Source: a virus | Reading direction: 5' to 3' (one strand) | Virus record (IMG/VR): IMGVR_UViG_3300032285_003489 | Location: 1 to 20,886 of that record | Length of the DNA stretch: 20,886 bases | Shown: positions 5,609-20,886 of the stretch, in pieces | How positions within the stretch are numbered: the first letter of the stretch is position 1 | Layout: the number at the start of each line of letters is the position of its first letter | Translations under genes and position numbers: made by a program | The notes under the pieces: generated by a model | Databases searched by the model: none | Told to the model about the DNA's origin: nothing | The model's input: the letters and a program-made list of their open reading frames with translations, nothing else

Positions 5609-5987
5609 TCCAAGGACATGCCTTTGGCATATAAACTACAGCATGACCAGTTGCTACTGCTTCCTGGTTAATTTCAGTTCCATCAGCAAGAAAGAGGCGT
5701 CCAACAGTTCTACCATAAAGATCTTTAGTAACTCTTTCAATCTTAATATCTTGATTTAGAACTAAATCAGACAACCATTTTTGTGCTGCTGGACCACCAA
5801 TTGGATCTTTTTTACCGTGCTTGTTATTGGTTACTTCTGGAGCATCAATACAAGCAAGACGAATCTTTTCACCAGATGCTGTAGTTACAGTATCTCCATC
5901 ATGAACTCCAACAATAACATCTGCTTTAACAGCAAGTGTTACTAATGAGAGGGCAGCAATTACTGCACCAATTTTTAAAAGTTTCAT
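5601..5987 (-). CDS. Exported staphylococcal-type thermonuclease
   Basis: This 128-residue protein has a signal peptide (MKLLKIGAVIAALSLVTLAV, cleavage after VKA at about residue 22) and a compact SNase domain. The metal and catalytic residues of staphylococcal nuclease are all visible: DGDT (Asp30, Asp32), IRLACIDAPE (Arg43, Asp48, Glu51) and DLYGRTVGRL (Arg93). The family cleaves DNA and RNA phosphodiester bonds with Ca2+. The leader predicts export to the periplasm, so it would act on extracellular or incoming DNA or on debris at lysis rather than on the cytoplasmic chromosome. It sits between the metallopeptidase and the small membrane protein in one orientation. No key residue is missing. 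Confidence 0.88.
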   Translation of the reverse strand: MKLLKIGAVIAALSLVTLAVKADVIVGVHDGDTVTTASGEKIRLACIDAPEVTNNKHGKKDPIGGPAAQKWLSDLVLNQDIKIERVTKDLYGRTVGRLFLADGTEINQEAVATGHAVVYMPKACPWTK

Positions 5988-6478: not shown

Positions 6479-7129
6479 TTACTTCTTCCACGATTCACCT
6501 TCTGCCTTTCTTCTACGAGCAAGTCCTGCTTCTACATTTGAACCAGGATTGCGATAGAGATATAAAGCATCAGGAACTTTATCCCATTCTTTATTCTTCA
6601 GTCTTGTGGTAATGGTATTAAAATCTCCACTACCATAAAAACCTGCACCTAAGTTATAAGCGAAAGAAAGTAATGCACCTCTTTGCCCATCACTCATTTC
6701 ATTCCAATGTGGAATTTTACGAAGTGCTGGAAGGAAGTTTTTACGGCATTCATCCATCAATAATGAATCTGCTTCTGCTTGAGTAATGGTTTGACCCAAT
6801 CTAAATGGACCACCATTCTTATCTCTGGTGCATCCCCAACCAATCGTAATTGGAAGTCCTCCTGTGAGAGGATCTGGATATGCATTCAATCTGCAACCTT
6901 CAAATTGTTTAATCAATTGAAGACCTGCTGCAGGAACATCATCACCAGATGCTGCAGCGGCAGATGCTGCTACAGCTTCAGTCTTTTTTCTAAAGATCTC
7001 CGCCCATTCTGCCTTATCTTCCAAATATTGAACTGGAAGATGATCTTCTAACCATTGAACTCCTTTTACATGATTTTCATTCTTTTCATCATAAAACTTG
7101 AAAAAGTTATGTAAATCTACTTTTGCCAT
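6479..7129 (-). CDS. GH24 lysozyme (endolysin) with N-terminal module
   Basis: The 216 residues fall in two parts. Residues 1-50 form a helical module almost identical in pattern to the start of the next-door peptidase (DLHNFFK(F/Y)YD...NENHV...VQWLED). A Ala-rich linker (about 51-66) leads to a GH24 muramidase domain: LIKQFEG gives catalytic Glu77, and Asp86 and Thr95 (in PITIGWG) match the T4 lysozyme Glu11/Asp20/Thr26 arrangement; GQRGALLSFAYNLG is the family's second signature. It hydrolyses MurNAc-GlcNAc bonds of peptidoglycan. AGGAG lies 8 nt upstream of the ATG. There is no signal peptide, so release would need a holin, or it acts from the virion. Confidence 0.9.
   Translation of the reverse strand: MAKVDLHNFFKFYDEKNENHVKGVQWLEDHLPVQYLEDKAEWAEIFRKKTEAVAASAAAASGDDVPAAGLQLIKQFEGCRLNAYPDPLTGGLPITIGWGCTRDKNGGPFRLGQTITQAEADSLLMDECRKNFLPALRKIPHWNEMSDGQRGALLSFAYNLGAGFYGSGDFNTITTRLKNKEWDKVPDALYLYRNPGSNVEAGLARRRKAEGESWKK
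6986..7117 (-). repeat. Shared N-terminal module, copy in lysozyme
   Basis: This encodes residues 5-48 of the lysozyme. It aligns without gaps over most of its length with the start of the peptidase gene and shares an exact 18-bp DNA run (7043-7060 equals 7754-7771), so the module was duplicated within this locus. Confidence 0.8.
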
Positions 7130-7147: not shown

Positions 7148-7837
7148 TTACGAACCGAAAATACGACCCCAGCCTGTGCCAGGTTTGCCCTGATCTAACC
7201 AACGATACTTGAGAACATCTTTGGTATAGATTGTTTTTTTACCATGCTCAACTGGACCAGTATAGTTATCATTTAACGATCCATAAGGATCGTTAATATA
7301 ATATCCTTTGAGATCAGGAGTAGTACCAATCACTACGACCATGTGACCGCCAGTTGGAGCAGAAAGAGGACCACGGTGGAGGATACCGATAACCAAGGGG
7401 CGCCCAGCAGCAAGCTCTCTATCAATATCAGCAAACCCAAGGTTGTAACTAAAATGTGACTTAACGCCATAAGAAGCAAGAACTTTTGTCTGTACTGAGT
7501 GATCAGTACTGTCACCAATTGCGAACACTTTTTGTACGTAAGCATCATCACCTTTTGCACCTTTAAGAGTGCCTGGTTTGAGGAACTCCAAGCACATAGC
7601 GCACGATGAAGAGTTGCAAGTCCTATGTGCATCTCTATAGTTATCTACTTGATTGAAATATGGAACTGCCAATACTGGTGGAGTAGGTGGTTTAGTTCTA
7701 AAAATTTTGATCCATTCTGTTTCTGAATCATCCATATATTCAGCAGGAAGGTTATCTTCTAACCATTGAACTGCTGCTACATGGTTTTCATTCGTATCAT
7801 CATAATACTTAAAAAAGTTATGAAGATCTAAGGTCAT
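7148..7837 (-). CDS. C39-like papain-fold cysteine peptidase
   Basis: This 229-residue protein starts with the same module as the lysozyme (residues 3-49), then a Pro-rich linker (PPTPP) and a Peptidase_C39_2-like domain. Visible landmarks are VPYFNQ (58-63), the nucleophile region RTCNSSS with Cys74, PTGGHMVVVIG with His165, and INDPYG with Asp183, giving the Cys-His-Asp triad in order. This family cleaves peptides and in phages often acts on cell-wall cross-links; the substrate is inferred from the neighbouring lysozyme and shared module. GAGG lies 5 nt upstream of ATG, and a CTAAATA late box lies 31 nt upstream of the start, so expression is probably late. It leads a run of four degradative enzymes. 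Confidence 0.8.
   Translation of the reverse strand: MTLDLHNFFKYYDDTNENHVAAVQWLEDNLPAEYMDDSETEWIKIFRTKPPTPPVLAVPYFNQVDNYRDAHRTCNSSSCAMCLEFLKPGTLKGAKGDDAYVQKVFAIGDSTDHSVQTKVLASYGVKSHFSYNLGFADIDRELAAGRPLVIGILHRGPLSAPTGGHMVVVIGTTPDLKGYYINDPYGSLNDNYTGPVEHGKKTIYTKDVLKYRWLDQGKPGTGWGRIFGS
7691..7828 (-). repeat. Shared N-terminal module, copy in C39 peptidase
   Basis: This encodes residues 4-49, the partner of the lysozyme module at 6986-7117. Conserved features are DLHNFFK, NENHV, VQWLED(N/H)LP and EW..IFR. The function is unknown; it could anchor both enzymes to the same place (cell wall, tail or each other). Confidence 0.8.
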
Positions 7838-8283: not shown

Positions 8284-8370
8284 TTAATAAGTTTCGGAAA
8301 GTTGATTGACAGAATGTGCAAGAAGCACAAAGAAAGCAATACTGGTAACAGTAAAAATTGCTTCTCCCAT
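8284..8370 (-). CDS. 28-residue membrane peptide between two hli genes
   Basis: ATG at 8370 overlaps the upstream hli stop as TAATG, and TAA at 8284-8286 closes 28 codons. The peptide (MGEAIFTVTSIAFFVLLAHS...) is one hydrophobic helix with a short polar tail (VNQLSETY), similar in size and shape to low-molecular-mass photosystem subunits, but I cannot match it to PsbM, PsbT, PsbI, PsbN, PetN, PsaJ or Psb30. Position and stop-start coupling make translation likely. A thylakoid location beside the Hli proteins is inference. Confidence 0.65.
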   Translation of the reverse strand: MGEAIFTVTSIAFFVLLAHSVNQLSETY

Positions 8371-8579
8371 TATACTACACCAAAGAAGAGGTGTCCAGTA
8401 AATGCATAAGAGATAAGTGCTGCGACAAATCCAAGCATCGCAGTACGTCCATTCAAAAGTTCAGCACGTTCTGCATGAGTTTGAAGTGCATAACGTTCTG
8501 CGTCACTTTGGGACACATACATTTTAGGTTCTTTAGCAAACATGTTTTGTTGCCCGAACTCATTCGTCGTTACAGTCAT
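8370..8579 (-). CDS. hli: High-light-inducible protein, 69 residues
   Basis: A hydrophilic N-terminal extension (1-35) precedes the Hli helix: residues 36-51 contain AERAELLNGRTAMLGF with the full ExxNGRxAM chlorophyll-binding signature (Glu40, Asn43, Arg45), continuing FVAALISYAFTGH. It binds chlorophyll in thylakoids and helps protect photosystem II, the same process served by the phage psbA. It is first in its operon, 28 nt downstream of a near-consensus sigma70 -10 box. No clear Shine-Dalgarno sequence precedes its ATG, unlike the second hli gene. The start at 8579 is the only ATG giving the usual extension. Confidence 0.92.
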   Translation of the reverse strand: MTVTTNEFGQQNMFAKEPKMYVSQSDAERYALQTHAERAELLNGRTAMLGFVAALISYAFTGHLFFGVV

Positions 8580-8638: not shown

Positions 8639-9430
8639 CTATTTGCCTTCCCATCCAGGAGGAAGAGTTCCAAAATAAGGATCATAATCAAATATTGAAC
8701 TCCAGTCTGAAACATCAGATGATTCATTTTTCCAAAATTGCCATAATCCATCATAACTACTTTTATGAAAAGCATCTATGTGATCTTTATGAATGGAAGA
8801 TCCTAATTCAATCTTATACATGAACAGGGGAATTGAAAATGTATTTCCAGAATTATAAATTAAATCGTCAGCAACTGCTCTGGGTTTAACACCATTATCT
8901 AACTTATATTTTTCTCCACGAACATGAAGATTGATAAGTTTTTGAGCATGATGTCTAGTGATCAAATAACATGCGGTAGAAAAATCATTCACAAATCTAC
9001 GATGTAATTTCATATGTATTTGAGCAGGATTAATTATAGCCAATTGAATTACATCATAATCATAAGGAATTTTGCAATAAAAATCTTTCCAATTAAATCC
9101 CCAATGTTTTACAGTATCCAAATCACAATCATCTTCCATTATTAATGCACATGGAGAATCAGAATTTTCTAAAAAGTATTTAAGTGCTTTTAGATGGGAA
9201 GTTGTACATCCAACTTCTCCAGAATTCATCATATTTGGATATCGACCTTTTATAATATCACTAAGATCATCGTCTCTTCCATCATATGCAGAGATGCGTG
9301 TATAATCTTCAATTTCCCAATGTTTAAACTGACTTTCCATGTATTCTGCTCTTTCTGGTTGCCCATCAAGATTCAAATAATAAATGGAAGGAAGACCTTT
9401 AAGTTTGTAAGTTGATTTATTTTTATCCAT
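8639..9430 (-). CDS. GT25 family glycosyltransferase
   Basis: This 263-residue protein has the LPS-type GT25 pattern: YYLNLDGQPERAEYM (17-31), a short acidic region after AYDGR, GEVGCTTSHLKAL (71-83) and the nucleotide-sugar/metal motif EDD (99-101, in ALIMEDDCDL). Family members include bacterial LOS galactosyltransferases and collagen galactosyltransferases, so UDP-Gal or a similar donor is plausible but not shown. It lies 3 nt after the previous gene and is the last gene of the 12-kb glycan run. Cytoplasmic, with no leader. Confidence 0.8.
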   Translation of the reverse strand: MDKNKSTYKLKGLPSIYYLNLDGQPERAEYMESQFKHWEIEDYTRISAYDGRDDDLSDIIKGRYPNMMNSGEVGCTTSHLKALKYFLENSDSPCALIMEDDCDLDTVKHWGFNWKDFYCKIPYDYDVIQLAIINPAQIHMKLHRRFVNDFSTACYLITRHHAQKLINLHVRGEKYKLDNGVKPRAVADDLIYNSGNTFSIPLFMYKIELGSSIHKDHIDAFHKSSYDGLWQFWKNESSDVSDWSSIFDYDPYFGTLPPGWEGK

Positions 9431-9433
9431 GTT

Positions 9434-10210
9434 TCATTTTAATGTAAAAGCATCATTTTCATCTTGTAATGTTACATTTTCAGGTTTTGGTATAATTACA
9501 GTAGATTTGCATCCACCTAACCACCAAGAAACTTCGGTAAATGTACTTCCCCATGTACCTATAATTGTTTTGCATTTAGACAAAAGTAAACAATCAATAA
9601 ATCCATCAGTTACCAATTGAACATCATCATGATGAAATCCAAAAATATTACACTTTGTTTGATGCATCACTTGATCGTGAGTTATTATCCTATCACCATA
9701 TTTTTGTTTAAAATATTCAATTACATCATTATTATCACTACATAAAAATATTTTTTTAGAGGAATCAAATTTATCTATTTCATTTTCAAATAATTTGTTA
9801 TCGTGCCAATAAAGTCTAGGTGGTCCGGCGTGCCACCAACTTCTAATGTGAACGCCAATAACATCACTCCAATCTTCCAAAAAATTATCCACATATTCTA
9901 AAATATCAGGATTAATTTCAATTTTATCAAGAGAATTTAAATATTTTTTAATAAAATACTGTGGGGTATCATTATATAAAAAATCTATTGTTTTATACTT
10001 TTCAATATAAGTTTCTTCTTCTTCAAGAACTTTTAATTTTGATCCACATACACCATTAATTGGATTTTGATCATATGCAATTGAAGGGAATATGTAAGAA
10101 TCTGCATAAACTTCAGTATTAACCCGATCATATTCACAAAGAAAACTCATATAGGTTTTAATTCTATTGCACAATCCCTGCGCCTTAACAACTGTTGGTA
10201 TACTAGTCAT
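9434..10210 (-). CDS. Fucosyltransferase-like protein (HxR type)
   Basis: This 258-residue protein starts with a GLCNRI segment (12-17), comparable to the GxxxN donor-loop start of GT11/GT23-like fucosyltransferases. IGVHIRSWW (118-126) supplies the HxR motif that contacts GDP-fucose in that superfamily. LCSDNNDVIEYF (156-167) and the late segment GFIDCLLLSKCKTIIGTWGS match the donor-binding second half. It could be a second fucosyltransferase, using the GDP-fucose made by Gmd and Fcl; the linkage cannot be read. It overlaps the upstream gene by 8 nt and is AT-rich (10 G/C in 60 at 9721-9780). Confidence 0.6.
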   Translation of the reverse strand: MTSIPTVVKAQGLCNRIKTYMSFLCEYDRVNTEVYADSYIFPSIAYDQNPINGVCGSKLKVLEEEETYIEKYKTIDFLYNDTPQYFIKKYLNSLDKIEINPDILEYVDNFLEDWSDVIGVHIRSWWHAGPPRLYWHDNKLFENEIDKFDSSKKIFLCSDNNDVIEYFKQKYGDRIITHDQVMHQTKCNIFGFHHDDVQLVTDGFIDCLLLSKCKTIIGTWGSTFTEVSWWLGGCKSTVIIPKPENVTLQDENDAFTLK

Positions 10211-10961
10211 TTAAAATAATCTCCATCATATTATTAAAGATCTCAGTTTTTTTAACTAGAGGATCATTAAAATCTCTCCAGTTAGAATGCCAGTTAGTAG
10301 CAGCACGATAGTGTAGAAACTTACCATCCAAATGCAACTCAAAGTTATATCCTTTGGTTACTTCATCATTTTGCAATTCAATATCATTATAATGTGTTGG
10401 ATACTGAACATCAGTTTCTTTGAAAATTACTTTATTTTTTTTAAAGTATTGATATGTTTGTCCACCAGTATCAAGATGTTGACCATCAACATAATCAACA
10501 TTAAACTTAATATCAGAATCAAGTTCCATAAGTTTGGGCATATTAAAAAACATTAAACCATTCCACATGTATTTAATATGTTTCCTTACTTGTGGAAGCC
10601 CAGAAATCACACAGTCAGACATATATTCCACAATATTAAAATTGTCAATTAAAAACATATCAGAGTCTGTCCAGAAAACAATATCTGATGAGAATTTCTT
10701 TTTGATAATCTCATCAAATGACCATTGAATTACATTTCCAACTTTTGTTGATGGATTATTGTGTTCTAAATTTTTTGGAGTTTTGTAATATTCAATATTT
10801 TGTTCATCACATATTTGTTTAAACTGTGAAGAAATATTTTCATCTATAGAATCATCAACAACATGAAACTTATAATCTCCAACAATAAACTTTTTAAATA
10901 AATCGTTTTGGACTTTTACAAAATCTGGACGATTAACAACTGAAGTAAAAATGTGAATCAT
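10203..10961 (-). CDS. Glycosyltransferase, GT-A fold with DxD
   Basis: ATG at 10961 (MIHIFTSVVNRPDF) overlaps the epimerase stop as ATGA and removes six implausible residues of the longer frame; the protein is then 252 residues. It has an N-terminal beta-alpha unit for nucleotide binding, FHVVDDS in the donor region, and the metal-binding motif TDSDMF (Asp99, Asp101), followed by GLMFFNMPKL. These are GT-A features, but I cannot place it in a numbered family. The sugar and linkage are unknown. Its position between epimerase and the HxR-type transferase fits assembly of the same glycan. Confidence 0.68.
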   Translation of the reverse strand: MIHIFTSVVNRPDFVKVQNDLFKKFIVGDYKFHVVDDSIDENISSQFKQICDEQNIEYYKTPKNLEHNNPSTKVGNVIQWSFDEIIKKKFSSDIVFWTDSDMFLIDNFNIVEYMSDCVISGLPQVRKHIKYMWNGLMFFNMPKLMELDSDIKFNVDYVDGQHLDTGGQTYQYFKKNKVIFKETDVQYPTHYNDIELQNDEVTKGYNFELHLDGKFLHYRAATNWHSNWRDFNDPLVKKTEIFNNMMEIILND

Positions 10962-11857
10962 AAGTGTGATGCAATCCAATCTTCAAGTTTCATGGTTGGT
11001 TCCCAACCAAAAGTTTTACGAAGTTTTTGATTATTCGCCAAACTTAAACGAGTTTCACCAGGGCGAGGAGCAATATGCACAGTATCATTAGAAATTATTT
11101 TAGAAACTTGCCTAATTGAATAATTAGTTCCTGTTCCGACATTATAAACTTGTCCGTAAAGTTCATTATCAATATCAGTAGTTGCTGCTAAAATATTTGC
11201 CTGACATACATCTCCAACGTAAGTAAAATCTCTACGTTGATGCCCATCACCAATAATAGTTAATGGTTCACCTGCTGCACGTTGACGAAGGAAAATACCA
11301 ATCACAGGAGCATACTGACCCCGAAGAGGTTGGCGTTCTCCATAAACATTAAAATACCTAAAGATAACCGTTCTTAATCCATACAATTCAGTATACATTC
11401 TACAAAGTTTTTCACCATTAACTTTGGATACCGAATAAGGATTCAAACAATCATCAGGTTGGGTTTCAATATTGGGAGGTTCATTTTTCCCATATGCAGA
11501 AGAAGTTGAAGAATACATAACTTTCTTCACACCTGCCTCACGAGAGCATTGTAGAACTGTTACTGTACCAACAGAGTTGATACTTACTGCTTCAATAGGA
11601 TTGTGGATAGCAGGTTGAATACGTGCTTCCGCAGCAAAGTGAAATACATAATCTACACCATCGTAGAGTGGGCGAGTATTCTCATAATCACGAATATCAT
11701 ACTTATAGTTTTGCGCTTTATCGTTCCAATAAAAATGATCATGAGCATCGGAATACTCATTATCGATTACCACAACTTCATGCCCAAGTTCTAGTAAACG
11801 ATCTACAAGGTTGGATCCAATAAATCCAGCACCTCCAGTAACAAGTGATTTAGTCAT
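10958..11857 (-). CDS. UDP-hexose (Glc/GlcNAc) 4-epimerase
   Basis: This 299-residue extended SDR enzyme has GGAGFIG (8-14) for NAD, HFAAEARI (73-80), SSTSSAYG (116-123) with the catalytic Ser/Thr, and YSVSK (Tyr141, Lys145). RYFNVYGERQ (167-176) and RRDFTYVGDV (208-217) are typical of the GalE/WbpP group. It interconverts UDP-Glc/UDP-Gal or UDP-GlcNAc/UDP-GalNAc; the substrate cannot be fixed by eye. It lies two genes after the GT6 transferase, which needs UDP-Gal or UDP-GalNAc, a direct functional link. Base composition is near 50% G/C at 11281-11340, much higher than the neighbouring glycosyltransferases. It overlaps its upstream neighbour by 4 nt. Confidence 0.82.
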   Translation of the reverse strand: MTKSLVTGGAGFIGSNLVDRLLELGHEVVVIDNEYSDAHDHFYWNDKAQNYKYDIRDYENTRPLYDGVDYVFHFAAEARIQPAIHNPIEAVSINSVGTVTVLQCSREAGVKKVMYSSTSSAYGKNEPPNIETQPDDCLNPYSVSKVNGEKLCRMYTELYGLRTVIFRYFNVYGERQPLRGQYAPVIGIFLRQRAAGEPLTIIGDGHQRRDFTYVGDVCQANILAATTDIDNELYGQVYNVGTGTNYSIRQVSKIISNDTVHIAPRPGETRLSLANNQKLRKTFGWEPTMKLEDWIASHL

Positions 11858-12498
11858 ACAATTCTTTCAGGTAAAAAATAGTTTTTGTTATAATTAAAAC
11901 ATTCTTCGGTTGGGTAACTAGTTAAAGGATTCACAGTTCCATGATACCCGCTTGTTTGATAGAAGAATGGATCGTCAAAAGCATAAACATTAAACCAACG
12001 TTGAATTTCTGCAAATCCAATATCTTGATAATCTTCAATTACATATCCAGCATGGTATGTAATTCTTTGGCACATTCTAACATATTCATCAGTCAAATAC
12101 AAGACAGAATGACCACTCAACATATTATATACGCGATAAAGATCATCCTTTACTTTTTCATATTGAACATAAGGTCCAGAATGACCATTCATTCTTCCCC
12201 AAGATGAAATGCCAAGATAAACTGCATCAGCATCATCAGGAACTTCGATTTCAGGACGAAAGTTTTTAATCATACAATCATCTTCAAAAAGAATGAAGGG
12301 AGTATCAACTTCTTGAAGTCCTTTATGATGTGCAGAAGAACATCCAGCAACTGGATTGTCTGGACGTTCAACACCCTCTACACGAATAATATTTTTAAAT
12401 CCACATTCCTTGAGAATCTTTTGCATATTCTCATTTTTTTCAGTATGCTGTTTAAGATTCATATAAACAGCAGGTATCTCTCTAAGATCTAAGTTCAT
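11854..12498 (-). CDS. GT25-like glycosyltransferase
   Basis: The 214 residues begin with IPAVYMNLKQHTEKNENM (8-25), the GT25-type N-terminal strand and helix, followed by GCSSAHHKGLQ (52-62) and FEDDCM (71-76) with the EDD metal motif. The C-terminal half holds the acceptor region and no known motif. It is shorter than the other GT25 protein at the end of the cluster and only distantly similar to it. It overlaps the GT6 gene by 17 nt and the epimerase by 4 nt, so all three are translationally linked. Donor and linkage unknown. Confidence 0.7.
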   Translation of the reverse strand: MNLDLREIPAVYMNLKQHTEKNENMQKILKECGFKNIIRVEGVERPDNPVAGCSSAHHKGLQEVDTPFILFEDDCMIKNFRPEIEVPDDADAVYLGISSWGRMNGHSGPYVQYEKVKDDLYRVYNMLSGHSVLYLTDEYVRMCQRITYHAGYVIEDYQDIGFAEIQRWFNVYAFDDPFFYQTSGYHGTVNPLTSYPTEECFNYNKNYFLPERIV

Positions 12499-13171
12499 CT
12501 TTATTTCTTTTCAAAGCAATAATTTTAGGTTCATGTGGATAATCAGTTCCATAAAACTCTTCAGCAAAGCAGTAGGAAGGGGTCAGAGATAGTGTAGGAG
12601 GATTATCAATCATATACCTATTCATGTGACTTTCATCATGCCAAAGAGCAATCACATCATTCTCAAAATCCTTATTAACACGATCAGCAATCACTTCAGA
12701 CATTTGAATAAAATTTTTGGTCGATCCACCATTAAATCCACCAGCATAATAATTTTTACCTTCACCAGATGGAACATATGCTAGAGATTTTGGATTACGA
12801 TCATAAGACATAGTTTCAATACTATTGAAAGATTGATATGGATGTTGAGTTCCAACTAAGTCACTTAAAACTTCATCACCAACTGAATTATCAACTCTCA
12901 TATCAGCATCAAAATAGAAGCAATAATCATGCTGAAGAATAAAATCTTTTTCCTTTACAAAGTAATTGTAACGCTTTAGAGTTGGCATCGGCCAAGGTTC
13001 ATGATCAATATAATGAACTCTCACATTATCAGAAGTTTCTACCTCATGATCAGTAAACAGGAGACAACTAATTTCGTGCCCATTGAGAAAATTTTCATCA
13101 ATAGTATCATAAAGTTCTTCAACAAACTGAAGATACTTATTTGTTGCGATAGTCAAAATACAAATTTTCAT
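12482..13171 (-). CDS. GT6 family glycosyltransferase (ABO-type)
   Basis: This 229-residue protein has nearly every hallmark of GT6, the family of the human ABO enzymes, alpha-1,3-galactosyltransferase and Forssman synthase: WPMPTLKRYNYF (60-71), FYFDADMRV with the metal motif Asp88-Ala-Asp90, GTQHP (107-111), YVPSGEGKNYYAGGFNGGS (132-150) and WHDESHMNRY (177-186) with the catalytic Glu180. Vertebrate enzymes add Gal or GalNAc alpha-1,3 to Fuc-alpha1,2-Gal. Many bacterial GT6 enzymes have NxN, while this one keeps DxD, so metal dependence is likely. Residues 143-145 (Ala-Gly-Gly) occupy the ABO donor-specificity positions; Gly at the second site is the GalNAc-type state. There is no membrane anchor, unlike the Golgi enzymes. 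Confidence 0.88.
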   Translation of the reverse strand: MKICILTIATNKYLQFVEELYDTIDENFLNGHEISCLLFTDHEVETSDNVRVHYIDHEPWPMPTLKRYNYFVKEKDFILQHDYCFYFDADMRVDNSVGDEVLSDLVGTQHPYQSFNSIETMSYDRNPKSLAYVPSGEGKNYYAGGFNGGSTKNFIQMSEVIADRVNKDFENDVIALWHDESHMNRYMIDNPPTLSLTPSYCFAEEFYGTDYPHEPKIIALKRNKDELRS

Positions 13172-13188
13172 GATTATAAAAAAGATAC

Positions 13189-13977
13189 TTATTTTTTAGC
13201 TGCTATAATTATATTTTTAAAAATTCCACATTCACAATAATCATTTATAAAATTAAATCCATCATCTTTCATTTTAGTTATTATAGTATTATAATTTTCT
13301 TTACTATAATGGTCAAGTAATAAATTATAAGTAATATAAACTACTTTACTATTTTTTATAACTTTATCGTAATAATTCAATTGCGATTCAATACTAAGTT
13401 CAGAAAGAGAATAATTACTAATTAAAAGATCAATATCAAAAATGTCGATTAATTGATCACAAGGAATAAATTTATTTCTAGAATATACTTCAGGAAAATT
13501 TTGTAAATATTTCTCTTGAATTTTTACAGCTTCGGGAAGATCAATATTTACATATTCATCAAAATCACACAGAACACTTAAAGTTTTACATAACCCACCA
13601 TATCCACCACCAATTTCAACTATTTTGGAAATTTTTTGATCTTCGCATAAAGAACTTAGATCTAAAGAATTTTTAATATACCTAAGAGTCGAAGGAGATA
13701 TTTTTACACCATCATATAAAAATTTTTTTGGATTTCCTATCAAATCATTTTCTAAAAATTTATTTAAATTTTGATTATAAATTTCTTCTCCAACTTCCTT
13801 TATATACTCTAAATATTCTTCTCCCAATTCATAATCCACATGTTCCAAAATAACATTATATTCTGGTAAGGTTTTAAAATTAGAAAAAAGTTCTTCGCTT
13901 TCTAAAATTTTATTACAGATATCAATATAATTTTTTGCATCATTTGAATTGATATCCCATTCATTAGTGTTTTTCAT
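13189..13977 (-). CDS. Putative sugar O-methyltransferase
   Basis: This 262-residue protein has a helical N-terminal half and a class I SAM-binding fold: KIVEIGGGYGGL (118-129) is motif I, followed by EYVNIDLPEA (141-150). This VEIGGGYGGL...DLPE arrangement is characteristic of the 'putative sugar O-methyltransferase' group found in surface-polysaccharide loci. It would use S-adenosylmethionine to methylate a glycan hydroxyl, a cap that can hide the chain from glycan-binding proteins. It is strongly AT-rich and begins an AT-rich block that contrasts with the GT6-to-epimerase block downstream. Acceptor unknown. Confidence 0.72.
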   Translation of the reverse strand: MKNTNEWDINSNDAKNYIDICNKILESEELFSNFKTLPEYNVILEHVDYELGEEYLEYIKEVGEEIYNQNLNKFLENDLIGNPKKFLYDGVKISPSTLRYIKNSLDLSSLCEDQKISKIVEIGGGYGGLCKTLSVLCDFDEYVNIDLPEAVKIQEKYLQNFPEVYSRNKFIPCDQLIDIFDIDLLISNYSLSELSIESQLNYYDKVIKNSKVVYITYNLLLDHYSKENYNTIITKMKDDGFNFINDYCECGIFKNIIIAAKK

Positions 13978-13985
13978 TAGAATAA

Positions 13986-14711
13986 TTATTTTAATAATTT
14001 TTCAGATAACTTATTAAGCACATCGTCATCCACGTTATTATATAGTACAGATTTATATTTTAACATTTTTACTTTAGAATACTTATTCATACTAAAATTA
14101 TATTTCTCCCTAACTTTCATAGACCAAACAACATCTTCACCCTGCCCCCAAACTAGATTCTCATCTAAAGGAAACTCCAACATAACACTTTTCTTAGCAA
14201 CCCAATAAGCACCAGAAAAATACATATGTTTAGTAAATTTATTTTCATCATAGGGGAGTAAACATCTCATTCCAGGTTCAACAATATCAGAAATTAGTCT
14301 ATTATATTGCCCATCAATATGTGGAATATTTGGATCATTCCACATACAAAGACACCAATCTCGATATCGAGTTCCGTCAAAATTTATAATTTTATTCATG
14401 CACAAATCAAAAGAATTTTCAAATTTTAAAAATCCATCATACCAACCAACATCAAATTTAATATAATCGTGAAGATAAACTATATTTTCAAACTCAGAGA
14501 AATTAGTAATAATATTTTTCTTTCTGGTAATCCAAGAAGTTTTTATACTTTCATCAAATTCGATTATTTTAGTTCTTTTTCTTTTGACTATAGAATTACC
14601 AACGATTATAATTTCATATTTTGGAATATTTTGTGATTCGATGCTGTCAATAATTTCATTAATATTATTATCGTTAGATCCATTAGTAACTATACCAAAA
14701 GTAAAATTCAT
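13986..14711 (-). CDS. GT2-type glycosyltransferase
   Basis: The 241 residues begin FGIVTNGSNDNNINEIIDSIESQ, the nucleotide-binding unit of GT2 (residues 5-27), followed by YEIIIVGNS (32-40). YLHDYIKFDVGWYDGF (79-94) is where the DxD-like motif normally lies; here it is His-Asp-Tyr. WGQGEDVVWSMKVR (188-201) provides the ED motif with the likely catalytic base Asp. This is an inverting GT-A family; the donor is unknown. It is very AT-rich (9 G/C in 60 at 14041-14100) and separated from its neighbours by 4 and 8 nt. Confidence 0.7.
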   Translation of the reverse strand: MNFTFGIVTNGSNDNNINEIIDSIESQNIPKYEIIIVGNSIVKRKRTKIIEFDESIKTSWITRKKNIITNFSEFENIVYLHDYIKFDVGWYDGFLKFENSFDLCMNKIINFDGTRYRDWCLCMWNDPNIPHIDGQYNRLISDIVEPGMRCLLPYDENKFTKHMYFSGAYWVAKKSVMLEFPLDENLVWGQGEDVVWSMKVREKYNFSMNKYSKVKMLKYKSVLYNNVDDDVLNKLSEKLLK

Positions 14712-14715
14712 TCAA

Positions 14716-15672
14716 CTACCTTACCATAATTTTTTCAATTTTTTCAACTAAACTATTTTCATAAGCAATTCCGTTTTCCATCCCAATTCCAAAAGAATTA
14801 TAATTTGAATTATGAATAGTATTATACGTTAAGTGTACAGAAAATCCATTTTTAACATACAAAGTTTTTTTATTAAAATTGTTTTTAAAAACATTTAGAG
14901 ATACTTCATCAAATGCATCATATGCTGGCATAAAAACAATTTTTTTCCAATCACTTGTTTTTATAAAGAAAACACTATTTGTATAATAAGGACTATCAAA
15001 TTCATCTATTGAGTACTTTTGTTTGTTTGCAATCTTATCAAAATTATTTAAAATATAGTCATTTAAAATAATTTGTGCTTCGGCACAAATTCTAATTGGA
15101 TGAATACCTTTATAAAAGTGATTTATTTGATCAACACCTTGATAAAAATGAGAAGGATTCCAAGAAGTTGCTTGTAGCGTATATGCATTCAAAGGAGAAT
15201 AGTCTACACCCCATAAACCATCTGGCATATTCCTATTCAAAAAATCTGAATAAATTTTATTTTTTACATTTTCATCAGTTATAAAAGATTCTATAAATTG
15301 GTCTACTAAAGGAATATTATTCGAAAGTAGTGGTGCTAAAAGCAGATTATCTTCGGATTTTAGTACATCAACATTTTCAATCATGTAATCCCACACATGA
15401 TTGCTTATAAAACAATCCTCATCTAATTTGACGGAATAATAAGTATCTTCCGAAATAGCATAGTTTATTTTATCCATATAGTTTAATCCAGGATTAAATA
15501 CAACTATATTTGTTGCGATACCATCTGGTCCTTCAAAATCAGTACGACCTGTGGATAAAATATTAATTTTTATTTTTGATTTGTTTTCTTCCTTTATAAG
15601 ATTAAGAAAATTCTTTGTTATTTTCCAAAAAGTTTTTGACCTTGTGTTAGACAGATAATTAATAGTTATCAT
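14716..15672 (-). CDS. Putative glycosyltransferase with DED motif
   Basis: This 318-residue protein has an N-terminal alpha/beta unit (ITINYLSNTRSKTFW), an inner strand KINILSTGRTDFEGP, and VKLDEDCFI (81-89) where GT-A enzymes carry DxD. Further on, a long insert contains MPDGLWGVDYSPLNAY and HFYQGVDQINHF; no numbered family is recognised. It follows a 73-bp gap, the longest within the glycan cluster, and has GAGAG 6 nt before the ATG. Call based on fold-like features and neighbours. Confidence 0.5.
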   Translation of the reverse strand: MITINYLSNTRSKTFWKITKNFLNLIKEENKSKIKINILSTGRTDFEGPDGIATNIVVFNPGLNYMDKINYAISEDTYYSVKLDEDCFISNHVWDYMIENVDVLKSEDNLLLAPLLSNNIPLVDQFIESFITDENVKNKIYSDFLNRNMPDGLWGVDYSPLNAYTLQATSWNPSHFYQGVDQINHFYKGIHPIRICAEAQIILNDYILNNFDKIANKQKYSIDEFDSPYYTNSVFFIKTSDWKKIVFMPAYDAFDEVSLNVFKNNFNKKTLYVKNGFSVHLTYNTIHNSNYNSFGIGMENGIAYENSLVEKIEKIMVR

Positions 15673-15745
15673 TTTTTACTCTCGACAAATTTACAATATT
15701 TAATGGAGATCCACAATAATAAAGACATTAGACTACAACCTACAA

Positions 15746-16351
15746 TTAACTTCTAATTACAAATAATAAATCATCCCATCTTCCCTTTTTATCACGAAGA
15801 TCAATACACTCAAATATATATTCAATTTGATTATCAATTGATTCGCACACTTTTTTTGCCGTATCAGTCAAAGAATCAAAACACTCAACATTTTGAACAT
15901 CTTCAATTACAAAAAGTCCATTTTGTTTTAATTTTGGCAAATATATCTCTATGGACTTTAGTTGACTTTCTAATGTATGAGGACCGTCATCAATAATGAT
16001 GTCAAATGTTTTAAACTTTTTAGAAAATTTTTCATCATAAGCATCACTAAAATACATCATTACACCATCAATATTTTTATATCTTTGATCTATCTTATCA
16101 TCATCGATATCAACACCAATAATAGATTTAGAGTTTAAAAAATATTCTTTCCAGAGTTTTAAAGAACCACCAGTTTCAATTCCAATCTCTAATAAACTAA
16201 TATTTTTTTCTTTATAAAAAGAAAATTCTTTTTCATAAAAACTTTCAATATAACTATGGCAAGTGTTTTTGTCAGTTCCACCTTTTTCACAACCTTCATT
16301 TAAAAAATCAGAATCTAAATTAAATTCATTTAAAATATCAATCAATTTCAT
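15746..16351 (-). CDS. SAM-dependent O-methyltransferase
   Basis: The 201 residues contain GGTDKNTCHSY (24-34), then SLLEIGIETGGSLKLW (52-67) as SAM motif I, IIGVDID (77-83), and FDIIIDDGPHTLESQL (116-131) with the DDGxH metal site seen in macrolide sugar methyltransferases such as MycE. GLFVIEDVQ (145-153) closes the core. It belongs to a different methyltransferase family from the enzyme at 13189-13977, so two methylation steps are available in this module. It overlaps the preceding gene by 14 nt. AT-rich. A sugar acceptor is inferred from the locus. Confidence 0.78.
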   Translation of the reverse strand: MKLIDILNEFNLDSDFLNEGCEKGGTDKNTCHSYIESFYEKEFSFYKEKNISLLEIGIETGGSLKLWKEYFLNSKSIIGVDIDDDKIDQRYKNIDGVMMYFSDAYDEKFSKKFKTFDIIIDDGPHTLESQLKSIEIYLPKLKQNGLFVIEDVQNVECFDSLTDTAKKVCESIDNQIEYIFECIDLRDKKGRWDDLLFVIRS

Positions 16352-17015
16352 TTTTATATTTTATCGCATCGTACCTATGTAGGTGTCTTTCATACACATT
16401 AATATTAGAATTCCAAAGACTTTTTAAATCTCCATTACCCATACCAACCCAAAACTCACAGTTATGTCTTATTGAAAGTATTGGGGGATTTTTTGGATAT
16501 TTAATTTCATTTATGGTTGGAAGTTTTTTAATATATGAAGAATTTGCCCACCAAAAATTACCAGAAAAATGAACAGCAGGTTGATTAACTAAATCAACTC
16601 CACATGCATCATGATTATTTAATGCACCAAAACACTTTTTATGTTGCCCAATATTAAAATAAGTCATATATTGACGCCAATCATCAATACAGGGATTATT
16701 TGGTGTTGTTACTCCTTTTGTGTGAATGTATAAAATTTTATAGTTGTTTTGTGATGAATCTGAGAATGTTTTAATTAAATTTAAAGTAAAAAATTCTCCA
16801 GTTTCTACGTAAAAATCTTGATGTATTTTAATTTTTTTATGCGATTGGACATTAAGTATATTTTTTCCAACTATGCAAATATTTACAGTTTCAACTTGAT
16901 CTATTAATTTAGAATTTAATATTTCATTATAAATTTCATCAAATACTTTTTGATATTCACCAATCGTTGCTACATGGAAATATATTATTTTTTTGTCCTT
17001 AATACAAAATTCCAT
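16338..17015 (-). CDS. Glycosyltransferase-like protein (HTKG / HFSGNFWW type)
   Basis: This 225-residue protein has YKILYIHTKGVTTP (92-105), DDWRQYMTYFNI (111-122), CGVDL and HFSGNFWWANSSYIKKLP (149-166), a set of motifs I associate with uncharacterised glycosyltransferase-like proteins in polysaccharide loci, related in style to rhamnan-synthesis F proteins. HTKG would lie in the donor site. Start ATG at 17013-17015 directly abuts the previous stop (TAAATG). Reaction and donor cannot be named. It lies immediately after the ColD-like gene, so it might transfer that unusual sugar; that is a guess. Confidence 0.55.
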   Translation of the reverse strand: MEFCIKDKKIIYFHVATIGEYQKVFDEIYNEILNSKLIDQVETVNICIVGKNILNVQSHKKIKIHQDFYVETGEFFTLNLIKTFSDSSQNNYKILYIHTKGVTTPNNPCIDDWRQYMTYFNIGQHKKCFGALNNHDACGVDLVNQPAVHFSGNFWWANSSYIKKLPTINEIKYPKNPPILSIRHNCEFWVGMGNGDLKSLWNSNINVYERHLHRYDAIKYKNEID

Positions 17016-18170
17016 TTAGAAAACACTCTCCAGTAACTTAAGTTCTTTATTACCAATAAAATGGTTGTTTCCCAAATAAATTCCATTATCATGAACAAAA
17101 TCAACTGTCAAAGTATTTTTATGAGTGGTTATATCATAACCTTCTAAAAATGGTTGTTTTAATAAATTTCCGCTTATAATTGGTCTATGTTCAATACCAA
17201 TTTCATCAAACTTTTTCTTTAAATTATCTGCAATTTCTTTTGTTTTACAGATTAAAGGAAAACAAAAATTGCTGCATGTTGGATAATATTTTGGAGCAAT
17301 AAACTTATCTGGATATTTTTTAACAAGTTTTATAAAATTAATATAATTTTTATTTCTAATCTCAATATACTTATCTAACCTTTTAAGTTGAGATAATCCT
17401 AAAACTGCACCAAGTTCATGATTTCTAAAATTATATCCATCAGTTACGAATAAAAACTGATCAGAAATGTGAGAATATTTTTTTGCATATTCTTTATGCT
17501 TTGTAGATTCTCTAGCAAGTCCATGACTTCTTTTCATCCTCATTAAATCGTACAATTCATAATTATTGGTAGATACCATTCCACCTTCAACTGTAGACAT
17601 ATGATGGCCAAAATAAAAACTAAATGTAGAACCTAAACTATCAGATCCACGTTTTGTTCCATCGGGAGACTTACAACCATGCGATTCACAAACATCATCC
17701 AAAATTAAAGCATCAGGAAATAAGTTTTTATACCTTTCATTATTTGCAGAAAATCCAATTAAATGAGTAACAAATATAAGTTTAATATCTGGATGTTCTT
17801 TAGAAATATACTCAAGATCTTCTTCACAAAAACTAAAATTATTAATATTAATATCACAAAAAATAGGAGTAAATCCTAATTGAATTACAGGTCCAATATT
17901 AGTAACCCAAGTACAAGATGGAACTAATACTTTATCTCCATTTTTTAGACCATAAAGTTCTTTAACTGCAGAAAGAAGTAAATAATTTGCAGTACTTCCA
18001 GAAGAAACATATAAAGAATATTTTGAACCTAACCAGTCATTCCATTTAGATTCAAACTCTCTAACTTTTTTACCATTAGTAAAACGATCTGAAGTTAGAA
18101 CAAATTTTGCAAGATTAAATCTATCACCTAAAGTGATATTATTTTTCATTAACGGCCATTTAAATTGCAT
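17016..18170 (-). CDS. colD: GDP-4-keto-6-deoxy-D-mannose 3-dehydratase (ColD-like)
   Basis: With the start at 18170 (MQFKWPL; overlaps fcl by 11 nt) the protein has 384 residues. It has the DegT/DnrJ/EryC1 aminotransferase fold: SSGSTAN (56-62) binds phosphate, and LDDVCESHG (157-165) contacts the PLP ring. Where the family has the PLP-binding Lys it has His: FYFGHHMSTVEGG, with His189 at the Lys position. ColD of colitose synthesis and the E1 3-dehydratase share this Lys-to-His change, and GYNFRNHELGAVLG and GIEHRPIISGN (325-335) also match ColD. The reaction removes the 3-OH of the Gmd product. The longer frame from 18236 would overlap fcl by 77 nt and lacks support. No ColC-type reductase other than Fcl is visible. 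Confidence 0.8.
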   Translation of the reverse strand: MQFKWPLMKNNITLGDRFNLAKFVLTSDRFTNGKKVREFESKWNDWLGSKYSLYVSSGSTANYLLLSAVKELYGLKNGDKVLVPSCTWVTNIGPVIQLGFTPIFCDININNFSFCEEDLEYISKEHPDIKLIFVTHLIGFSANNERYKNLFPDALILDDVCESHGCKSPDGTKRGSDSLGSTFSFYFGHHMSTVEGGMVSTNNYELYDLMRMKRSHGLARESTKHKEYAKKYSHISDQFLFVTDGYNFRNHELGAVLGLSQLKRLDKYIEIRNKNYINFIKLVKKYPDKFIAPKYYPTCSNFCFPLICKTKEIADNLKKKFDEIGIEHRPIISGNLLKQPFLEGYDITTHKNTLTVDFVHDNGIYLGNNHFIGNKELKLLESVF

Positions 18171-19122
18171 TTTCTTTATACCACTCATATGTTGTTTTAA
18201 TTCCCCCCAACAGACCAACTTTTGGTTCCCATCCAAGAGATTTAATTTTATCTACATTTAAAACTTTTCTTGGAGTTCCATTTGGTTTAGTAAAGTCCCA
18301 GGTAATCTCTCCAGGAAAACCAACTACCTCCGAAATAATATTTGCAAGTTCCCATATTCTAACATCCTCACCAGTACCAACATTAATGTGTTCTGATTCA
18401 TCATAGTTTTTCATACAAACATAACATGCCTCTGCAAGATCATCAACGTGAAGAAACTCTCTCATAGCAGATCCATCACCCCAAAGATTTACTGATGGTC
18501 CATGCCAGGGACCACCTGGATCTATAACATAACCATCTTCCTTTGCCTTATGAAACTTAGCAATCATCGCAGGAAGAACATGCGATGTTTCCAAATCAAA
18601 ATTATCATTAGGTCCATAAAGATTTGTAGGCATCAAAGAAATAGCATTAAATCCGTGCTGCTGACGATATGCCTGACACATTTTAACACCTACTATTTTT
18701 GCAAGTGCATAGGAATCATTAGTAGGTTCCAAAGGTCCAGTCATTAACTGATCTTCTGTAATTGGTTGTGTTGCAAACTTGGGATAGATGCAAGAAGAAC
18801 CAAGAAACAACAGTTTCTTTACACCCCAACGGTAAGAAGACTCAATAATATTAGTTTGAATACGAAGATTTTGAGTCAGGAAATCTGCCTTGTGGTTGTT
18901 ATTTGCCATAATACCACCAACCTTAGCGGCAGCAACAAAAACGTAATCAGGTTCTACAGATTGAATATACTCATCAGTTATTAATTCATCCGCAAAATCT
19001 ACAGATTTACGAGTTCCTTTGATTATATTACAATATCCTTTACTCTCAAGATTTCTTACAATTGCCGAACCAACCATTCCATTAGCACCAGCAACTAAAA
19101 TTTTAGAATTTTTTTCCATCAT
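18160..19122 (-). CDS. fcl: GDP-L-fucose synthase
   Basis: This SDR enzyme has about 320 residues. It has VAGANGMVGSA for NADPH, GSSCIYP with the catalytic Ser and Cys, YALAK with the Tyr/Lys pair, MPTNLYGPNDNF, and SHVLPA with the catalytic His of epimerisation. It converts GDP-4-keto-6-deoxy-D-mannose, made by Gmd, to GDP-L-fucose by 3,5-epimerisation and reduction. Start choice is open: ATGATG at 19117-19122 overlaps the fucosyltransferase stop and gives a length like E. coli Fcl; an ATG at 19134 would add four residues. It is flanked by the enzymes that make its substrate and use its product. Confidence 0.93.
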   Translation of the reverse strand: MMEKNSKILVAGANGMVGSAIVRNLESKGYCNIIKGTRKSVDFADELITDEYIQSVEPDYVFVAAAKVGGIMANNNHKADFLTQNLRIQTNIIESSYRWGVKKLLFLGSSCIYPKFATQPITEDQLMTGPLEPTNDSYALAKIVGVKMCQAYRQQHGFNAISLMPTNLYGPNDNFDLETSHVLPAMIAKFHKAKEDGYVIDPGGPWHGPSVNLWGDGSAMREFLHVDDLAEACYVCMKNYDESEHINVGTGEDVRIWELANIISEVVGFPGEITWDFTKPNGTPRKVLNVDKIKSLGWEPKVGLLGGIKTTYEWYKENAI

Positions 19123-19916
19123 AGAACTATCCATTTATTAAGGTACAAATCTTTTGTATTATTTTTAGAACAATCTCCACCAAACCAATTTTTTGGGGCA
19201 ATAGTTTTTTCACTTTTAGACAACCAGGATCCCCACCAACTATATGAACTATTTGCAATTACATGATAATTACACATAGACATCAAACAGAGATCAATAT
19301 TAGTATCACCAGAGTCTGAAACCATAAATCGATCAGATTCAAATAACTTTTGTTCTTTACACCATTCAGGATCGTCAGAAAAAATAAGAACAGGAATATC
19401 AGAATCAAAATAATTTAATGCTGATTTATAATATTCTTGAGTTTGTATTGGGTGATTTGGATTTGTTACATAATCACCTCTACGAATATGCAAAGAAATT
19501 ACTTTTGAATTAAATGCTTCTTCAAAAAATTCTTCGCATACATTTAAGATATGTTCCTTAAAAGTAAAATCTTTTCTGATTTCATCTTCAATATGTTTGA
19601 AATATTTTTCAGATTGAAAATATCCATAAAGATCTACATTATCGGGGCAGGAATTAAAAATATTTTTATCAAATTCATACCCACATTCTTGAATGATTTG
19701 ATTTTGTGTTACTGATTGAATACATTTTGATAAAACAAAACAATCATAGATTGTAGTATCAGAATTCTTAACATTCTGATCTATAAAACCAAATGCTTGT
19801 TTGGGAGGAATAAAATATTCATATCCATGTTTCTTTGCTATTCCCTTCAGAGAAGCATATTGAAACATTTGATTTGAAAGTCTACCAAGATTTCCAAGAT
19901 GATTAAATGATATCAT
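19119..19916 (-). CDS. GT11 alpha-1,2-fucosyltransferase
   Basis: From ATG 19916 (ATGA overlap with the gmd stop) the protein has 265 residues beginning [18 protein letters not shown]. It has the GT11 signatures: [11 protein letters not shown] near the N-terminus (11-21), SLHIRRGDY (141-149) with the HxRRGDY donor motif, and [25 protein letters not shown] (about 208-232, given in part). GT11 enzymes move fucose from GDP-fucose onto O-2 of galactose, making the H-antigen unit. An extra ATG at 19931 would add MCLWA inside the gmd frame and is not preferred. It lies between gmd and fcl, which make its donor. No membrane anchor. Confidence 0.9.
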
Positions 19917-20886
19917 TGCCCATAAACACACATGTCCTCAACTAATTCTTTAAATGAAATCTTAGGTTCCCAACCCAATTTTTCCTTTGCCTTAGTGGCA
20001 TCACCTAACAAAGTCTCTACTTCAGAAGGTCTAAAATATTTAGGATTAACTCGAATGACTTCTTTTTTGGTATTTAAATCATATCCAATTTCATCCAAAC
20101 CTTCACCCATCCACACAATCTTCATACCAAAATAAGGTGCCGCTGCTTCAACAAACTCACGAACTGAATACTGAACACCAGTGGCAATTACAAAATCTTC
20201 TGGTTCATCTTGCTGAAGCATTAACCACATCGCTTCAACAAAATCCTTAGCATGTCCCCAGTCACGCTTGGCATTCAGATTGCCAAGATACAAACAATCT
20301 TGAAGTCCAACAGAAATCTTAGAAAGTGCCCGAGTAATCTTACGTGTTACAAAGGTCTCACCACGACGAGGAGATTCATGATTAAAAAGAATACCCGTGC
20401 AGGTATACATTCCATATGCTTCACGATAGTTCTTTGTAATCCAGTATCCATAAACCTTAGCACACCCATAAGGAGAACGAGGATGAAAAGGTGTAGTCTC
20501 TTTCTGTGGAATCTCCTGCACCAATCCAAACATCTCTGAAGTAGATGCTTGATAGATACGAACTTTCTTATCCATTTCCAATAAACGAACTGCTTCAAGA
20601 ATACGAAGAGTTCCTAGAGCATCTGTCTGCCCAGTATATTCAGGCATCTCAAAGGATACTTTCACATGACTCTGAGCACCAAGATTATAAATCTCATCTG
20701 GTTGAACTTTTTGAATAACTCGAACTAGGTTAGTAGAATCAGTAAGATCACCGTAATGAAGATTAAGACGATCATAAATCCCATCAATTCTGTGAGTATT
20801 GATAAGGGAGGATCTCCTGATGATTCCGTGTACTTCATATCCTTTTTCTAAGAGCAATTCGGCAAGATAGGAACCATCTTGTCCCG
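19913..20886 (-). CDS. gmd: GDP-mannose 4,6-dehydratase, 5' end missing
   Basis: 323 codons are visible; the frame enters from the right edge at [20 protein letters not shown], so only about ten N-terminal residues with the Rossmann GxTG are lost. The Gmd core is intact: STSEMFG with catalytic Thr and Glu, SPYGCAK with the Tyr/Lys pair, and [17 protein letters not shown] (residues near 190 in the family). The enzyme turns GDP-D-mannose into GDP-4-keto-6-deoxy-D-mannose, the branch point here for Fcl (GDP-fucose) and the ColD-like 3-dehydratase. Base composition is high for the window (28 G/C in 60 at 20461-20520). The stop overlaps the next gene as ATGA. Confidence 0.95.

Follow-up and report, generated by a model that had tools for sequence, protein, structure and literature searches.

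The 20,886-base IMG/VR virus record IMGVR_UViG_3300032285_003489, referred to here as the window, carries a near-continuous, co-directional run of minus-strand genes from position 20884 down to 8639. The 12 annotated records matched by DNA were Synechococcus, Prochlorococcus or marine-virus entries, so its closest annotated relatives are cyanophages, and the gene content and order beside the high-light-inducible gene (hli) match those of the cyanophage hli03 lipopolysaccharide (LPS) cluster. All open reading frames (ORFs) of the run are open, with the sole exception of gmd, which is cut by the window end. A first-pass annotation had described the run as a histo-blood-group (ABH)-like glycan module, and the genes that it named (GT11, GT6, gmd, an fcl-like gene, an epimerase and two methyltransferases) were all recovered in one run by Pfam and NCBIfam. 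Three genes had gone unnoticed: a ColD-type gene (17016-18188), a NodZ/FUT8-like gene (9434-10210) and a member of the phrog_24091 family (11854-12498). The NCBIfam profile search covered the ten genes from gmd to GT6. Coordinates, strand, feature and basis are as follows.

19913..20886, minus: gmd, GDP-mannose 4,6-dehydratase, 5' end cut by the window end (Pfam 3.5e-149; TIGR01472 541.5 bits, an equivalog above its cut-off; 98.6% DNA identity to contig IMGVR_UViG_3300032218_002454)
19119..19916, minus: putative GT11 alpha-1,2-fucosyl(/colitosyl)transferase (PF01531 4.4e-29, above cut-off; phrog_2644 2.6e-117; placement and tree)
18160..19134, minus: Fcl-type GDP-4-keto-6-deoxymannose epimerase/reductase of the short-chain dehydrogenase/reductase (SDR) family (PF01370 5.7e-62; top PDB entries GDP-L-fucose synthases, about 1e-93)
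17016..18188, minus: predicted ColD-type GDP-4-keto-6-deoxymannose 3-dehydratase, DegT family (PDB ColD 2gms; His195 at the site of the pyridoxal phosphate (PLP) lysine)
16338..17015, minus: possibly a glycosyltransferase, by eye (no family above cut-off; synteny)
15746..16351, minus: class I S-adenosylmethionine methyltransferase (PF13847 1.4e-7 and PF13578 1.2e-6, both above cut-off)
14716..15672, minus: possibly a GT-A type transferase, by eye (no family; relatives occur in ColD-free loci)
13986..14711, minus: GT2-like by eye (no family above cut-off; relatives occur in ColD-free loci)
13189..13977, minus: putative sugar O-methyltransferase (TIGR04371 80.3 bits, cut-off 44)
12482..13171, minus: GT6 (ABO/BoGT6a family) transferase (PF03414 1.4e-36, above cut-off; DAD motif; 4ayj 7e-41)
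11854..12498, minus: phage family phrog_24091, GT25-like by eye (phrog_24091 1.7e-84; present in 78/80 GT6 loci)
10958..11857, minus: nucleotide-sugar 4-epimerase, GalE/WbpP-like (PF01370 3.7e-59; 4zrm 4.9e-52)
10203..10979, minus: possibly a glycosyltransferase, by eye (no family; present in 51/80 GT6 loci)
9434..10210, minus: candidate NodZ/FUT8-fold fucosyltransferase-like protein (PF05830 6.1e-5, below cut-off; model and Foldseek)
8639..9430, minus: GT25 glycosyltransferase (PF01755 2.2e-11)
8370..8579, minus: hli, high-light-inducible protein (PF00504 1.1e-4, above cut-off; same neighbour in P-SSM2 and ACG-2014f)

A predicted ColD-type dehydratase and its partner genes

In the PDB search, the DegT-family protein encoded at 17016-18188 matched ColD (2gms) at 2.6e-55, with the next non-ColD entry at 2.5e-28; E1 dehydrases gave 1e-27 to 2e-26 and perosamine synthases about 2e-23. 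Its His195 aligns to the His188 position, where aminotransferases carry the PLP lysine, and residues 172 to 305, the stretch in which the [2Fe-2S] cysteines of E1 and SpnQ would be expected, are without Cys. The absence of Cys from this stretch, together with His in place of Lys, is as expected for ColD rather than E1. Every one of the 131 strong ColD rows from viruses and phages, a count that includes overlaps between loci, has the FGHH motif, and HHxxxxEGG was kept in 79 of 80 genome loci, the lone exception being a 201-residue reading. According to PMC8987622, His replaces the catalytic Lys in ColD, and the substrate of ColD, GDP-4-keto-6-deoxymannose, is the product of Gmd. The DegT "aminotransferase" of the window, whose identity to the fragment of E. 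coli ColD used for comparison is 34%, is thus predicted to be a ColD-type GDP-4-keto-6-deoxymannose 3-dehydratase. This assignment would correct annotations of such genes as aminotransferase or hypothetical protein; the ColD-type gene is recorded as hypothetical in ACG-2014f and as a putative CDP-sugar dehydrase in S-CAM7.

For the gene-content counts, the best 80 of 364 viral relatives of the ColD-type protein were kept, and among these gmd and fcl were each found in 78, GT11 in 34 and GT6 in 19. The 80 genome loci, in which gmd was called at ≥50% identity, comprised 47 with both gmd and an SDR adjoining ColD, 7 with gmd only, 6 with the SDR only and 20 with neither. Because of this co-location in viral and genome loci, gmd, the SDR gene and ColD look like one donor unit, and a gmd-SDR-ColD unit forms the colitose route in E. 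coli and Yersinia (PMC8987622). The donor-supply logic of the first-pass annotation omitted the ColD-type protein, which would act on the same Gmd product and lead towards colitose, a less common sugar than fucose.

Two further observations concern this family. Another DegT family, less closely related and carrying PAHH at the corresponding site, appeared in 17 weak rows of the viral loci, which suggests that RfbH/E1-type CDP-sugar 3-dehydratases occur in phages too. Besides, a contig of 15,998 bases filed in a Crocinitomicaceae metagenome-assembled genome (L315, PACT01000001.1) carries a phage-like gmd-ColD-fcl order, with a ColD identity of 73%; it has the same length as the viral contig IMGVR_UViG_2825980227_000005 and an equal-looking match, and is probably a phage contig binned with a bacterium.

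The window SDR scored 441.5 bits against NF047922 (GDPFucSynFcl), below the cut-off of 500, and for this reason it is called only Fcl-type despite its matches to GDP-L-fucose synthases in the PDB. Its identity to E. coli Fcl is 50%, and that to the ColD-adjacent SDRs of the genome loci has a median of 39% (33-67%). The SDRs were compared in a quick tree with long branches, from which four long-branch phage rows were left out; it contains no characterised ColC sequence and samples every second ColD-adjacent phage row (29/59) and every third ColD-free one (24/74). A bacterial set takes 43 of the 51 bacterial ColD-adjacent rows; among the phage SDRs sampled, 3 of the 29 ColD-adjacent and 10 of the 24 ColD-free ones lie on the bacterial side of the tree. 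E. coli Fcl joins, at a support of only 70, the set that includes the window SDR. The other 26 of the 29 ColD-adjacent phage SDRs fall in this set, so phages mostly pair ColD with an Fcl-type SDR.

The window cassette was also compared with its nearest relatives by DNA. In the nearest contig (L008), identity was 98.6% in gmd, 93.6% in fcl-ColD and 91.7% from GT6 to the lysozyme region, and the interval from 13.2 to 17.0 kb of the window had no DNA match. The gmd and fcl genes abut in L008; in the window, 800 bp corresponding to the GT11 gene separate them. Relatives yielded 183 gmd-fcl pairs within 3 kb (loci partly overlapping), 144 of them directly adjacent and 0 with GT11 in between, which makes the window order unusual and probably derived. 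Two contigs, ColD-free in the stretches fetched, have the order gmd-fcl-GT11-16338-15746-14716-13986-13189-GT6-11854-epimerase, with other genes interspersed; this order is spanned jointly by L169/L120 and L170/L123, each pair being stretches of the same contig by name. A DNA search with the stretch from gmd to the methyltransferase of a ColD-free contig matched 9 phage records. The 16338-17015 protein lies directly downstream of ColD in the window and of GT11 in the ColD-free relatives. Against L008, the ratio of non-synonymous to synonymous substitution rates (dN/dS) ranged from 0 to 0.32 for the gene pairs with changes; GT25 was without changes. The best reading of these comparisons is a mosaic cassette that would have been assembled by exchange and kept under purifying selection.

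The transferases and the ABH question

The GT11 protein carries HIRRGDY at residue 148 of its 270-residue ORF, an instance of HxRRxD, which we take to be a mark of this family; the PDB search by sequence gave no match at E 0.01. To place it, a tree of 336 rows was used, in which some rows come from overlapping loci of one contig, so that the counts are of rows and not of events. One set of 45 rows was defined using rows known to follow ColD, and the count of interest is that from the scans made with GT11 only (the best 80 of at least 549 and the best 80 of at least 561 relatives). From these scans, 16 of 19 rows within the set were ColD-positive, 12 of them adjacent, and outside it 50 of 180, 2 of them adjacent; in scans chosen for ColD or GT6 the corresponding values were 25/26 and 41/110. 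The window GT11 lies outside the 45-row set. An earlier tree (102 rows, a biased set) gave the same split, with one other ColD-adjacent GT11 (L138) in the part of the tree that holds the window GT11. In PMC11987014, GDP-colitose and GDP-fucose both served as donors for two GT11 enzymes, WbgN and FUT2, so the choice of sugar may depend on which donor is supplied. The sugar placed by the window GT11 could be fucose, colitose or both, since the enzyme belongs to a mostly ColD-free clade and its gene stands between gmd and fcl, yet a ColD-type gene is present.

In the case of GT6, the PDB search returned BoGT6a (4ayj, 7e-41) first and then human ABO (about 1e-32); the NCBIfam subfamily model Gltr_6 gave 197.4 bits, below its cut-off of 250. 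The structural model (overall predicted local distance difference test score, pLDDT, 73.8) bore out the proposed likeness to ABO structures to the extent that BoGT6a (Z 26.1, root-mean-square deviation (rmsd) 2.8 over 197 aligned residues) and GTA/GTB (25.2) were the top matches, but alpha3GT followed close behind at 24.5, nearly tied. The catalytic and metal-binding residues are W177-H178-D179-E180 (WHDE) and D88-A-D90 (DXD). Ala143-Gly144-Gly145, at ABO positions 266-268, is identical to the donor site of BoGT6a, a GalNAc transferase, from which we infer GalNAc as the likely donor sugar; across phages, AGG was found in 39 of 42 window-type genes and QGC in 35 of 36 genes of the other subtype. 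Compared with the acceptor contacts of BoGT6a (PMC3961637), His110, Trp177, His178, Asp179 and Glu180 are kept, and Thr134 corresponds to Ser122. Read by a simple pattern, the distinct phage GT6 genes (n = 78) gave DXD in 71 cases (42/42 window-type, 29/36 of the other subtype), NXD in 2 and no reading in 5, whereas bacterial GT6 proteins, with few exceptions, are described as NXN (PMC3961637).

The gene directly upstream of GT6 belongs to GT11 more often than to any other family: GT11 stands there for 23 of 78 distinct GT6 genes, as against 6 for the runner-up, and for 11 of 50 once the loci fetched with GT11 queries were excluded. It occupies this place for both GT6 subtypes, and 68 of 80 GT6 loci carry it. 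Co-occurrence of GT6 and GT11 was considered as proof of sequential action and dropped, because the clusters anchored on GT25 show no positive association of the two; GT11 was also present in 17 of the 19 GT6-free loci of that sample. The claim of an A/B-antigen-like epitope keeps part of its ground, with GT6 nearest to BoGT6a and ABO and GT11 commonest directly upstream, and loses another part to the acceptor loop, which differs, and to the GT25-anchored clusters. An A-like epitope is plausible; a phage A/B antigen is a strong claim, possible on these sequences.

The UDP-hexose 4-epimerase assignment was upheld at family level, with 4zrm (a UDP-glucose 4-epimerase, 4.9e-52), WbpP (4.7e-42) and WbgU (about 2e-39) as PDB matches; its product may be UDP-Gal or UDP-GalNAc. 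The gatekeeper residue of WbpP has a role in the choice between the two; this residue is Ser in the window epimerase, in WbpP and also in 4zrm, and was set aside as undecisive.

The protein encoded at 9434-10210 reached 22.4 bits with PF05830, under the cut-off of 28.3, and its sequence found nothing below E 0.3 in the PDB. Its model (pLDDT 88.8) matched NodZ in Foldseek (2.9e-8, TM 0.52, rmsd 9.1), followed by FUT8 (5.7e-7) and plant FUT1. Relatives occur in 9 of 314 loci, 6 of those ColD-positive. According to this model, the protein is a second candidate GDP-deoxysugar transferase, and with such a fold the sugar from ColD or Fcl would have at least two candidate users.

Weighing the readings

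The explanation that we favour, at about even chances, is a Kyanoviridae-like cyanophage surface-glycan cassette at the hli03 site that remodels the glycan of the infected cell with fucose and/or colitose. Gmd would convert host GDP-mannose into GDP-4-keto-6-deoxymannose, which the Fcl-type SDR may turn into GDP-L-fucose; ColD would take off the 3-OH and the same SDR would complete GDP-L-colitose, so that one or both donors would be available in the cell. GT11 would then place the donor sugar alpha-1,2 onto a beta-galactoside, GT6 would attach GalNAc (or Gal) by an alpha-1,3 linkage to that galactose or to a different one, and the other transferases and the methyltransferases would extend and cap the chain. 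The most likely target would be the host outer-membrane polysaccharide, giving an altered surface "serotype" (receptor masking, superinfection exclusion).

Several points weigh against this explanation. The product, linkage and acceptor are all inferred from sequence, and PMC3037559 leaves undecided whether cyanophage LPS genes are functional or stuffer DNA. A strong ColD was found in only 1 of 51 GT25-anchored loci. In the quick tree, the window SDR falls in a 42-row phage set (support 97), outside the 46-row bacterial set with its 43 ColD-adjacent rows, which makes closing the colitose route with this SDR an assumption. GT6 has Tyr112 after the HP pair, at ABO position 235 (PMC4202792), where ABO and BoGT6a have Gly/Ser, and this difference means that its acceptor is not readable from homology; the adjacent residues 114-139 have pLDDT <50 in the model. 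Finally, the GT25-anchored clusters (n = 51) comprised 20 with GT6 and GT11, 17 with GT11 only, 12 with GT6 only and 2 with neither, so that no positive association was seen (Fisher p 0.053, odds ratio <1). These 51 were taken from 79 loci, the requirement being ≥9.9 kb of upstream sequence, and the 10-kb limit weakens the test because GT11 can lie beyond it.

The last two points bear on whether GT6 and GT11 act in the same oligosaccharide but on different residues, so that an ABH-like epitope would not be formed. We consider this quite conceivable, although short of probable: Tyr112 and the frequency of GT11 in GT6-free GT25-anchored clusters, where GT6 is evidently not needed, speak for it, but the position of GT11 directly upstream of both GT6 subtypes does not, nor does the ColD-anchored set, in which GT11 accompanies GT6 in 19 of 19 loci and occurs in 15 of 61 GT6-free ones. 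It is rather doubtful that the run is a plain H/A-type module, in which GT11 would use fucose only, GT6 would act on Fuc-alpha1,2-Gal, and a different transferase, for example the NodZ-fold protein, would take up the ColD product. The window GT11 sits in a 90-row set with 10 ColD-positive rows, most rows are ColD-free in the phage SDR sets around the window fcl (9 of 12 in one, 16 of 19 in the other), the same genes stand in the same order in the ColD-free contigs with gmd-fcl only, and BoGT6a, the nearest solved relative of GT6, uses 2'-fucosyllactose (PMC3961637). Set against this are the SDR rows nearest to that of the window, L266 by path and L097 by identity (86%), which are ColD-positive, as well as the tested GT11 enzymes, which take both sugars (PMC11987014), the altered GT6 acceptor loop and the GT25-anchored counts.

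A 3,6-dideoxy sugar other than colitose, formed for instance through an extra epimerase or from a different GDP-4-keto substrate, is an unlikely product of the ColD-type protein. Campylobacter C3-dehydratases that are 62-67% identical to characterised ColD act on GDP-heptoses (PMC10440746), and the 34% identity of the window protein leaves room for such a change; on the other side, gmd accompanies ColD in nearly all of the viral loci counted and makes its substrate (PMC8987622). A glycan destined for the virion (e.g., its fibres) instead of the host surface seems improbable. In S-CAM7, ACG-2014f and P-SSM2, cassettes of this kind have tail-fibre genes nearby, and a fibre-like ORF, by eye, is present here at 326-2536, but no transferase was tied to a virion protein in this analysis, and the precedent for GT11 and GT6 in E. 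coli is an O-antigen (PMC4202792). Decaying or stuffer DNA, a possibility raised for cyanophage LPS clusters (PMC3037559), is hardly credible in view of the open ORFs of the run, the low dN/dS values and the catalytic His retained in every strong ColD row.

Within the favoured surface-remodelling cassette, a more specific version can be formulated, in which ColD, a GT11 of the fucosyl clade and the GT6 cap would give the host surface GalNAc-alpha1,3-(Col-alpha1,2-)Gal, an A-antigen analogue with colitose, and gain or loss of a single gene would switch between the fucose and colitose versions. We regard it as a long shot, though not a negligible one. If the favoured reading is right, cyanophages would carry, beyond generic LPS genes, a switchable pathway that puts 6-deoxy or 3,6-dideoxy sugars on the host surface, and a single dehydratase gene would determine the donor. 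Cassettes with a shared gene order, with and without ColD, offer a testable pair for the role of phage glycan clusters in infection.

Outside the run, several features were observed. The fibre-like ORF at 326-2536 encodes 736 residues, with an SBBP beta-propeller repeat at 6e-4, just under the cut-off. Three small plus-strand ORFs at 2628-3999 oppose the main direction and have signal-like N termini; two contain SGTNI-like stretches, curli-like by eye only. A staphylococcal-nuclease-like protein with a signal-like start is encoded at 5601-5987 (PF00565 2.2e-12), and DSL-LC02 has a thermonuclease family protein annotated downstream of its cassette. The lysozyme-like (6479-7129) and C39-peptidase-like (7148-7837) proteins share a similar N-terminal stretch (VDLHNFFK/LDLHNFFK), and cross-matches with a relative (104 bp, 83.7%) suggest that a leader domain was duplicated.

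Comparison with known systems

LPS clusters near hli03 have been described in cyanophages (PMC3037559). The Prochlorococcus phage P-SSM2 (AY939844) shares with the window, near hli03, the order gmd, two epimerases, GT11, GT6, a hypothetical protein, an epimerase, GT25 and hli, with GT6 72% and GT11 53% identical; it differs in that the stretch lacks a ColD-type gene and has other middle genes. The first-pass annotation had considered a complete set in one phage striking, but such a set was already known from P-SSM2, whose record names GT6 and GT11, and two cyanophages with GT6 were already counted in PMC3961637. Its suggestion of a block to co-infection, likewise, had been made earlier for P-SSM2 (PMC2984593). 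S-SCSM1 is reported with Gmd, Fcl, an alpha-1,2-fucosyltransferase and NodZ (PMC9602691). The Synechococcus phage ACG-2014f (KJ019059) and S-CAM7 (KU686212) have gmd, fcl and the ColD-type gene in a row, followed by GT11; in contrast to the window, their GT11 comes after ColD and belongs to the ColD-following clade. ACG-2014f also shares GT6, the epimerase, GT25 and hli, but its GT6 is of the other subtype (32% identity, QGC-type site). Colitose together with cyanophage was not found in the literature searched, within the scope of that one library.

Among bacterial systems, E. coli ColD (2gms, 3gr9) shares the His at the PLP-Lys position, the gmd and SDR genes alongside and the absence of E1 cysteines; it differs in its low identity over the fragment compared and in that the partner SDR of the window is Fcl-type. 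The GT6 and GT11 families also meet in E. coli O86, in which WbnI and WbwK make a blood-group-B-like O-antigen (PMC4202792), and WbgN of E. coli O55, a GT11 like that of the window, uses colitose or fucose (PMC11987014). These are bacterial loci, however, and bacterial GT6 is mostly NXN as opposed to the DAD of the window. BoGT6a of Bacteroides ovatus, an A-antigen synthase and the closest solved GT6, shares the Ala-Gly-Gly donor site, but it is NXN and metal-independent (PMC3961637) and has Gly, not Tyr, after the HP pair. Beside these systems, the cassette of the window is ordinary in kind for cyanophages; its ColD-type step had been overlooked, and its gene order is probably derived.

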